From Sulfurimonas crateris (GTDB lineage Bacteria; Campylobacterota; Campylobacteria; Campylobacterales; Sulfurimonadaceae), in contig NZ_SZPX01000007.1 in NCBI RefSeq assembly GCF_005217605.1, positions 1-64,000 on the forward strand: DNA of 64,000 bases, given 5' to 3'. The notes under the pieces were generated by a model, which did no database searches, was not told the origin of the DNA, and saw only the letters and a program-made list of their open reading frames with translations. This document shows positions 44,402 to 46,744 of this stretch, one piece after another. Position numbers and translations under genes: made by a program. Every line of letters begins with the position of its first letter. The stretch's first letter is position 1.

Positions 44402-46228
44402 TTAAAAGTAGAAATTTAGATAGACTCTTAAATTATCCTCTTTGTTATTCATCTCTCTCTTGCCTCTCTCTTTATAGTCATATTTAAACTTTAGTTGAGT
44501 GTTTTGCGAAACTCTAAAGCTTTGTGAGATAGATAGAATGTTCTGCTCCTCCCCGTTGTCATACCATCTTCTAATAGCCTCAATATTACTGCTCATAGAG
44601 CTGTATTTGTCAAGCACCATACCTATAGAGCCGCCTATCGCAGATTTAGAGTCTCCATCCAGATAAAAGAGCGGATCAGCCATTATATAAGTATATCCAA
44701 GCTTATTACCCCAGCTTAGCCCCACACCTACGGTTCCCATGAAATTAGCGCTTGAGTCAAGTGAGTTTCTGTCCCATCCAAACTTTGTTCTCCAAGAGAG
44801 ATTGTCAAAAAAGTGAGATCTTTGTGCAAGAGAGACGATGGATAGAATAGTTGCATCTTCAACCTCTAAGTCACTGTCCCTATAAGAGAGTTCAAGATTT
44901 AAAAACTCTATCTGTGTCCCTCTTAAAAAGCCGTAGTTGCTGTCCTCTAAGTCATGATATGCAGGGCGAATACCCAAAAAACCTATAGAGTCGCCATCTC
45001 TTGAACCACCGCCAATGGATGCTCTTATTGCGCGGTGGCTATCTATTGGGTTTGGTGGAGTTTTTATATCAAGCTTATCTCCCTGCCCAAGAGAAGCTCT
45101 AGCTTTTGAGAATTCATGAAAGAGCTCTAGGTACCTCTCCTTTTCTATTTTACTTTTGCTGAATTTATACTCAAGCAGCTCTATAGAAGCCTCTAAAATA
45201 TACATTTTTTGCTGTTTTTGGATATCACCGCTTCTCAAAACTTCATCGATCGAGATAGTAGAATCGACAAGCTCAAGAGGAAGATGAATATTTTCTTTCT
45301 CTATAAGTTCCTCATATTTTAAAAGAGTGGTTCTTTTTGAAGGTCTGAAAAATTTATCTTCTATAATCTTTTCGAGTTTTGAGGCATGTGCAGTCTCAAG
45401 AGGGATAACCTGATAGTTAAAGTACTCTCTAAGATGCAGGGTTGGTCTAGCGACCTCCATGAACCAGAGCATATTGTATGAGCAGTTTTCCGTAAAGAAG
45501 TAGTAGTAAGAGTGTGTTTCGTTAAGCTCCCAGATATGCTCTATCATTCTTCGCGTCTCATCTTCGCTAAAATCAAGATCATACTCCCAGATATCCCTCT
45601 GCTCACTGTCTCTATACTCTTTTAGTTTGTCATAGTATGGAAGCAGCGAGTATCTTCCAAAGTATCCTCCAAATAGCCCTTTGATCGCAAAAAGCACCGC
45701 ATTTTCTTCATCAGGATTTGCATCTGCGGCATAATTTACGGCATAAGATAGAAGTTTGGAGTTGTATGCAGAGTTGATGCGTAAAAAAGTGTGCCCAAAC
45801 ATGGAGGCAGGAGAGTTTATGTGGGCTGATGGAAAAACCAGAGTTACAGATTTTGGCTTAAGTCTTTTAACAATAGAGTCATATTTTTCGCATTTTACTT
45901 CAGGAAACTCTTCAATTGAGAGCTGCTCCTTGAGCCAAGCTTTTCTTGCCGGAAAGCGGCATGCGGTTGCGTTGTCATCAAAAGTTGTTTCGTTTAATAA
46001 TGCATCAATAGTAGCATCAAGCTCATCTTGCGCACTTGTTTTACCATCTGATGATAAAAAGAATCGCTCATCGTCTATCTCACTTACACCATCGTTCATA
46101 TGCAGCAGGAGGTTCCAGTATCTTGAGTCCGATAGATTTAGTTCTTGCGCTTTTTGTTTGTATTGGTACGAAGAGGCGTTTAAAATAGAGACAAAAAGGG
46201 TAAGGGTTAAAAATAGTCTGTTTAAAAT
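44402..46228 (-). CDS. DUF4105 outer membrane-associated protein, probable ATT start
   Basis: A 608-residue exported protein. After a signal peptide, the DUF4105 (Lnb-type periplasmic) domain spans about 40-340: YWNLLLHMNDGVSE, RFFLSSDGK, TLVFPSAHINSPASMFGHTF (family His/Ser), YSLLPYYDKLKEYRDSEQRD, YYYFFTENCSYNMLWF. The C-terminal 200 residues look like an outer membrane barrel ending in YLNFYF. The frame is open well before the first ATG (46099), and those upstream codons encode family-type sequence and the signal peptide, with no ATG, GTG or TTG. ATT 46228, 7 bases after AGGA, is the best start. Function unknown. Confidence 0.75.
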   Translation of the reverse strand: MLNRLFLTLTLFVSILNASSYQYKQKAQELNLSDSRYWNLLLHMNDGVSEIDDERFFLSSDGKTSAQDELDATIDALLNETTFDDNATACRFPARKAWLKEQLSIEEFPEVKCEKYDSIVKRLKPKSVTLVFPSAHINSPASMFGHTFLRINSAYNSKLLSYAVNYAADANPDEENAVLFAIKGLFGGYFGRYSLLPYYDKLKEYRDSEQRDIWEYDLDFSEDETRRMIEHIWELNETHSYYYFFTENCSYNMLWFMEVARPTLHLREYFNYQVIPLETAHASKLEKIIEDKFFRPSKRTTLLKYEELIEKENIHLPLELVDSTISIDEVLRSGDIQKQQKMYILEASIELLEYKFSKSKIEKERYLELFHEFSKARASLGQGDKLDIKTPPNPIDSHRAIRASIGGGSRDGDSIGFLGIRPAYHDLEDSNYGFLRGTQIEFLNLELSYRDSDLEVEDATILSIVSLAQRSHFFDNLSWRTKFGWDRNSLDSSANFMGTVGVGLSWGNKLGYTYIMADPLFYLDGDSKSAIGGSIGMVLDKYSSMSSNIEAIRRWYDNGEEQNILSISQSFRVSQNTQLKFKYDYKERGKREMNNKEDNLRVYLNFYF

Positions 46229-46262
46229 AGGAGAGTCCTGAATTTGAGGTTTTGTAGAGTAG

Positions 46263-46287
46263 GATCAAACGAAAAATTCGTTTGATC
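46263..46287. terminator. hairpin between the DUF3015 and DUF4105 genes
   Basis: GATCAAACGAA (46263-46273), loop AAA, TTCGTTTGATC (46277-46287): 11-bp perfect stem. On the minus strand it lies 11 bases after the DUF3015 stop and would end that transcript; the T-rich side (TTAACTTTTTTT) is on the plus strand, so it would terminate best in the opposite direction. Confidence 0.6.
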
Positions 46288-46297
46288 TTAACTTTTT

Positions 46298-46744
46298 TTA
46301 TAGAGTTGTTGTAGAGATATTGTCAAGTACATCAGCCATTTTTACATCTTGGCTAGTGTATATCTTGTTGTAGTTCTCTTGAAGAGATGCAGAGAAAGTA
46401 GCTTTGTCAGATACTTCTAAAAGCTCTGCCAAAGTGTCAATGCTCTCGCCGTGACCGATCGCGATCTCTTTAGCAAGTTGATCCATATTTGAAGCAACAA
46501 ACTCTTCAGCTTGCTCATTCATAACGAATTGAGTTTTTTGACAACCTAAAGTTCCTGAAGTGATACCGAACGTTTGGTTACCCGAAGTACCGTTTGTTGT
46601 AGCTTGAAGAGCTAACAGTACAGCAGTAGAATCATCTTTGATAATCATAGAACCAAGACCACAACCAGTTTGAGAATTTACGCCTGCCATTGCAGATGAA
46701 CTTAGTGCTACAATTGCAGCAAGGCTAACTAGAATTTTTTTCAT
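46298..46744 (-). CDS. DUF3015 family periplasmic protein
   Basis: A 148-residue protein with a clear signal peptide (KKILVSLAAIVALSSSAMAG) and the DUF3015 pattern NSQTGCGLGSMIIKDDS, TTNGTSGNQTFGITSGTLGC, then a helical C-terminal half. The two conserved cysteines (GCG, GCQ) may form a disulfide. Function unknown. AAAGGAAG precedes the ATG. Set in a group of three minus-strand envelope genes. Confidence 0.85.
   Translation of the reverse strand: MKKILVSLAAIVALSSSAMAGVNSQTGCGLGSMIIKDDSTAVLLALQATTNGTSGNQTFGITSGTLGCQKTQFVMNEQAEEFVASNMDQLAKEIAIGHGESIDTLAELLEVSDKATFSASLQENYNKIYTSQDVKMADVLDNISTTTL

Follow-up and report, generated by a model that had tools for sequence, protein, structure and literature searches.

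The minus strand of the window analysed here, a stretch of 64,000 nucleotides from Sulfurimonas crateris, contains a reading frame of 620 codons without a stop (46264-44402), bounded upstream by an in-frame TGA (46265..46267), in which the first ATG, GTG or TTG is the ATG at 46099, at codon index 55. A sequence-only reading of this DNA had observed that the frame is open back to the TGA and offers none of the three usual start codons upstream of 46099, both of which are correct, and had proposed that the gene probably starts at an ATT. This candidate start codon (46226..46228) lies 43 codons 5′ of ATG 46099 and is preceded, 7 bases upstream, by the AGGA that the same reading had described (46236..46239), a putative Shine-Dalgarno sequence that is conserved near the corresponding sites of the genus. 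Read from the ATT, the gene comprises 608 codons and a stop (44402..46228) and is identified by Pfam as an Lnb_N (former DUF4105) gene, the product of which would begin with a signal peptide of 19 residues (46172..46228; translation, with the cleavage place judged by eye). Upstream, on the same strand, lies its partner, a DUF3015 gene (46298..46744; Pfam PF11220) that starts at an ATG, and the space between the two genes contains a hairpin with an 11-bp stem and the loop TTT (46263..46287; energy z -5.7).

Pfam divides the protein started at the ATT into DUF7843 (residues 31-102), Lnb_N (120-279; 45392..45871 on the minus strand) and DUF7840 (392-597; 44438..45055, same strand), and the match to the Lnb_N/DUF4105 profile (PF13387) reaches 183.6 bits against a cut-off of 22.2. 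DUF4105 has been described as a permuted NlpC/P60 core with a conserved His and a conserved Cys (PMC12994826), and both are found here, since His146 and Cys249 are invariant in the 20 sequences of our alignment; that description and their place suggest that they could form the catalytic pair. The AlphaFold2 model shows an N-terminal helix, an alpha/beta part and twelve C-terminal strands, and is of moderate quality (mean pLDDT 75.1, with residues 155-211 of the alpha/beta part below 50). Outer-membrane barrels make up almost all of the best matches that Foldseek listed, with TM-scores that are low (about 0.2-0.6) and suffice for the fold class only, and together with Pfam and the model they support the prediction of DUF7840 as a 12-stranded beta-barrel. 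The search by sequence for solved structural relatives returned none at E 0.01. The protein is thus probably an outer-membrane enzyme, a predicted beta-barrel with an NlpC/P60-like domain.

The start site across the genus

A search of 135 genomes of the genus gave a match in 82, and the start region was read in 87 loci. Eleven of these (L099-L109), with less than 47% identity, are distant copies and were left out of the site count; in 10 of them a canonical codon is reached by codon 14 of the frame. The remaining one, L105, has no such codon there, and it lacks a canonical start where its relatives L107 and L108 have an ATG. The start site was examined in the other 76 loci, from about 74 genomes, and could be placed in 75, in 73 by a Shine-Dalgarno rule (in two of these with the codon set by hand) and in L088 and L090 by eye. 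L068 shows a shift of frame between the signal-peptide region and the remaining gene, which points either to a damaged gene or to a fault of the draft assembly.

The codon at the site was ATT in 44 of the 75 loci, ATC in 26, ATA in 4 and GTG in one (L056), where the GTG is found one codon further downstream, a pattern expected of a true start. The comparison of N-termini in relatives that had been proposed as a check therefore returned ATT, ATC or ATA in 74 of 75 sited loci and not ATG. The proposal of an ATT start is supported by these relatives, among which appeared neither an ATG at the same place nor an indel that would restore a frame from 46268. In 65 of the 73 loci sited by the rule, the in-frame codons that separate the site from the upstream stop include none of the canonical ones. 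The eight exceptions are L022, L063, L056, L074, L086, L077, L084 and L087; in L084 and L087 an ATG stands immediately 5′ of the ATT and may be the real start. The in-frame upstream stop is no more than five codons from the site in 44 of the 73, often as the TAG within TAGGAA, and leaves little room for an alternative start.

The Shine-Dalgarno rule is partly circular, as 183 of 1150 internal ATT, ATC or ATA codons pass it too. An independent test was provided by the protein alignment alone, in which 46 loci of the genus aligned from residue 1 of the query. The codon at residue 1 was ATT in 31, ATC in 10, ATA in 3, TTA in one and GTT in one, that is, near-cognate in 44 of 46. The TTA belongs to L063, where the rule puts an ATC one codon away, and the GTT to the distant copy L105. 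Positions 2-20 of the signal peptide each use 6-19 codon types across the aligned loci, and position 4 is Lys or Arg in 39 of the 46, followed by a hydrophobic stretch and then by A-S. The motif AGGA lies close to the site in 55 of 75 loci, compared with 24 of the 1150 internal codons. Both marks of a near-cognate start were thus found: the gene and its close relatives lack a usable ATG, GTG or TTG (the 65 of 73 above), and a codon at a fixed place (44 of 46) goes with a ribosome-binding site (AGGA in 55 of 75).

Upstream gene, hairpin and genomic context

The gene for DUF3015 is found upstream of the Lnb_N gene in 74 of 75 loci of the genus, and its aligned first residue is an ATG in 69 of the 74. 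The spacer between the two genes measures 45-79 nt in 67 of 74 loci and 133-232 nt in the other seven. Spacers of 25-110 nt, taken from the DUF3015 stop to the Shine-Dalgarno sequence, were folded in 67 of the 74 loci and compared with 100 mononucleotide shuffles each; z was below -3 in 60 of the 67, with a median of -4.9. A helix of at least 7 bp was present in 62 of them, with 60 distinct left arms among the 62, and the median distance from stem to start codon was 31 nt. The shape of the hairpin is therefore conserved and its letters are not. The clear exception is L059, with a z of 0.7. An intrinsic terminator on the coding strand was considered and found no support, since the 8 bases after the stem contain on average 3.1 T (62 helices); at the hairpin of the window, the only terminator reported by a pattern scan is on the opposite strand. 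Between 46150 and 46900 no known RNA family scored over its cut-off, the one match being a chance match (E 0.93).

How unusual such a start is was examined on contig C7, which holds the window (218 kb of a 2.2-Mb genome), against 180 kb of a single relative, G134. The comparison was limited to non-overlapping genes, as many of the reading frames flagged in a broader scan were antisense shadows. Among 144 genes of the contig with a relative in G134, 43 had at least four aligned codons before the first canonical codon. The Lnb_N gene had 27 such codons and the other 42 genes 15 or fewer, and all of these 42 were judged by eye to reach an ordinary start. No other gene of the 144, compared with this one relative, showed the same pattern.

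The sequence-only reading had compared the ATT with that of infC in E. coli, and this gene was followed in the genus as well. Of 60 genomes, 55 had a match, and 30 loci were read (L110-L139). All 30 have a TTG at codon 4-7 of the frame behind a GAGGT-like sequence, none has an ATG in the first eight codons, and an ATG is found some nine codons beyond the TTG. From these sequences Sulfurimonas infC seems to start at TTG, with no sign in the 30 loci of an E. coli-type ATT start. The parallel with infC is thus apt in kind, although the infC of Sulfurimonas itself does not appear to share the ATT.

In other genera and families, 60 loci of the Lnb_N gene were read, of which 47 were sited by the Shine-Dalgarno rule and 13 gave no site. 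The codons of the 47 were TTG in 22, ATC in 8, ATT in 7, ATA in 7, ATG in 2 and GTG in one; the rule loses reliability outside the family, and several of its assignments there are doubtful. In seven loci, six of family f9 (L187, L188, L190, L192, L194 and L195) and L193 of f7, DUF3015 ends only 7-13 nt ahead of the codon aligned with residue 1; the Lnb_N frame continues upstream into this end, where it contains in-frame TTGs. To judge from its sequence, the gene pair is differently laid out in these seven loci, which, as a guess on our part, may belong to relatives of Arcobacter.

Proposed mechanism and alternative explanations

These observations lead us to propose, with considerable confidence, that the Lnb_N gene has a near-cognate ATT start which is disfavoured by IF3 and which gives a low, possibly IF3-tuned, output beside a partner with a normal start. 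Here we infer the use of the ATT codon, the co-transcription of the two genes, the low output, the role of IF3 and the enzyme activity. The Shine-Dalgarno sequence would position the 30S subunit at ATT 46228, where the initiator tRNA would pair fully with only two of the three bases of the start codon, and the protein would presumably start with formyl-Met and bear the full signal peptide. IF3 has been reported to repress near-cognate starts (PMC5472188), and correct initiation on the AUU/CAU pair was lost in a reconstituted system with rising IF3 (PMC10158994). In Listeria the output of start codons followed the order ATG > ATA > ATT (PMC13068326). Since IF3 disfavours such starts, each mRNA should give little protein. 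The DUF3015 gene just upstream, probably on the same mRNA, would use its ATG. The hairpin would probably separate the two messages, through stability or processing, and leave some 30 nt before the start. The start would thus keep the Lnb_N protein scarce beside DUF3015, and the conserved weak start would act as a brake on the synthesis of a predicted barrel protein of the outer membrane with an NlpC/P60-like domain. A more far-reaching and rather doubtful idea is that hairpin, spacer, Shine-Dalgarno sequence and ATT, ATC or ATA form one conserved post-transcriptional control unit, which would split the output of DUF3015 and Lnb_N and make the abundance of an acyl-transfer enzyme of the outer membrane depend on the fidelity of initiation, that is, on the level of IF3. 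If so, synthesis of the enzyme would follow the state of the translation machinery.

The alternative that survives best accepts the start as real and regards it as neutral: where a low amount of protein suffices, a weak codon can persist without any regulation. On the protein tree the codon at the site changes state 18 times, or 17 without the four most distant copies, and never to ATG. Active avoidance of ATG at the site is suggested; however, G is the third base of fourfold sites at a frequency of 0.11, so that about 17 changes without a single ATG have a chance of about 0.14 (0.89^17), which is not significant and is compatible with neutrality. Against it, AUG starts have been reported to be under purifying selection in prokaryotes (PMC5622118), so that selection should restore more efficient codons wherever a larger amount of protein was of use, and the conservation throughout the genus argues for a benefit. 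We consider a neutral start possible, if somewhat unlikely.

Another explanation is that the frame is reached through frameshifting, or through termination and reinitiation, by ribosomes coming from DUF3015 or another upstream reading frame. The two genes are neighbours in 74 of 75 loci, 17 canonical-start frames cross the site in another frame over 73 loci, and in the six f9 loci and L193 the Lnb_N frame does reach into the end of DUF3015 and contains in-frame TTGs. However, the crossing frames are not general, and an in-frame stop lies within five codons before the site in 44 of 73 loci. Moreover, coupling is reported to require an overlap or a very short spacing (PMC10666635), whereas the spacer of the genus (45-79 nt, or 133-232 nt in the seven longer cases) nearly always contains a stable hairpin. 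Entry from upstream is in our judgement quite improbable for the genus.

A start further downstream, at ATG 46099 or at a TTG or ATG within the signal peptide, is similarly hard to sustain. A TTG or ATG does occur inside the signal peptide of some relatives (for example L003, L007 and L017), a TTG comes right after the ATT in L031 and L073, and an ATG at the position equivalent to 46099 is frequent among relatives. However, ATG 46099 is residue 44 of the protein, so that a protein started there would lack the signal peptide and the front of DUF7843. The 43 codons ahead of it had been taken as coding from the sequence, and they do hold the signal peptide, enter the DUF7843 match that spans residues 31-102 and are conserved as protein. 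In addition, nine of the 75 loci (L004, L010, L018, L057, L060, L074, L083, L084 and L091) have no canonical codon within 50 codons of the site. Such a start is therefore very improbable. Finally, the sequence-only reading had allowed that a single-base error or indel hides a normal start and had placed an ATG of another frame at 46268; a frame does begin there (46080..46268), with TTG and not ATG, but this explanation can practically be dismissed because the same frame with ATT, ATC or ATA recurs in 74 of 75 sited relatives, among them eight genomes assembled in one or two contigs that have ATT or ATC at the site, which excludes a base error, and because L003, the closest relative at 87% identity, shares the open frame and the ATT, with an unchanged spacing from the upstream TGA. 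Taken together, the comparison of sequences strongly supports ATT 46228 as the start site.

Comparison with known systems

A search of open-licence papers returned, among the matches listed, no report of the start of this gene. Gene callers assume ATG, GTG or TTG, and they are thus expected to truncate the Lnb_N protein, which would lose its signal peptide. For the protein itself, the obvious comparison is with Bacteroides, where DUF4105 has been described as Lnb, a lipoprotein N-acyltransferase (PMC12994826). The two have in common the Pfam domain and the conserved His and Cys reported there. In the Sulfurimonas protein this domain is joined to DUF7843 and to a predicted C-terminal barrel, and Sulfurimonas genomes also carry Lnt, over the cut-off in 20 of the 21 genomes searched, its own included. 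The Lnb_N protein is thus no stand-in for a missing Lnt. An Lnb_N domain with a predicted 12-stranded barrel, present alongside Lnt, may have a role different from that of Bacteroides Lnb.

With regard to the start, the closest classical case is infC, for which an ATT start in E. coli and an ATC start in Streptomyces, disfavoured by IF3, have been described (PMC5472188). Both are near-cognate starts on cellular genes that IF3 disfavours or, in Sulfurimonas, would be expected to disfavour; infC forms an autoregulatory loop, whereas the Sulfurimonas gene codes for a probable envelope protein. In Listeria, six conserved genes with fixed non-canonical starts have been reported, of which infC (ATT) and rnhC (ATC) are experimentally proven (PMC13068326). 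As with rnhC of L. monocytogenes, a near-cognate start appears to be fixed on a gene other than infC, as judged in Sulfurimonas from sequence comparison. The conservation of rnhC was counted within one species, whereas that of the Lnb_N start extends through the genus and into other genera, with codon switching. The sigR gene of Streptomyces, with a GTC start in 32 of 34 cases and GTT in two (PMC5472188), resembles it in a genus-wide non-canonical start, a variable third base and a low output beside a partner of the same operon, the output in Sulfurimonas being presumed. The differences are that sigR encodes a sigma factor, uses GTC or GTT, has been shown experimentally and is the upstream gene of its pair, whereas the weak gene of Sulfurimonas is the downstream one and uses ATT, ATC or ATA.

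The Lnb_N gene would join a small known set, that of infC, rnhC and sigR, in which it stands out by the unusual breadth of its conservation and by its probable envelope function. If confirmed, it would add an envelope gene of Sulfurimonas and its relatives to the few conserved near-cognate starts. The conservation of a weak start across close relatives suggests that output is kept low on purpose, and the switching among ATT, ATC and ATA, together with the TTG of other genera, provides a comparative set in which the purpose of such starts, from infC to sigR, can be addressed.
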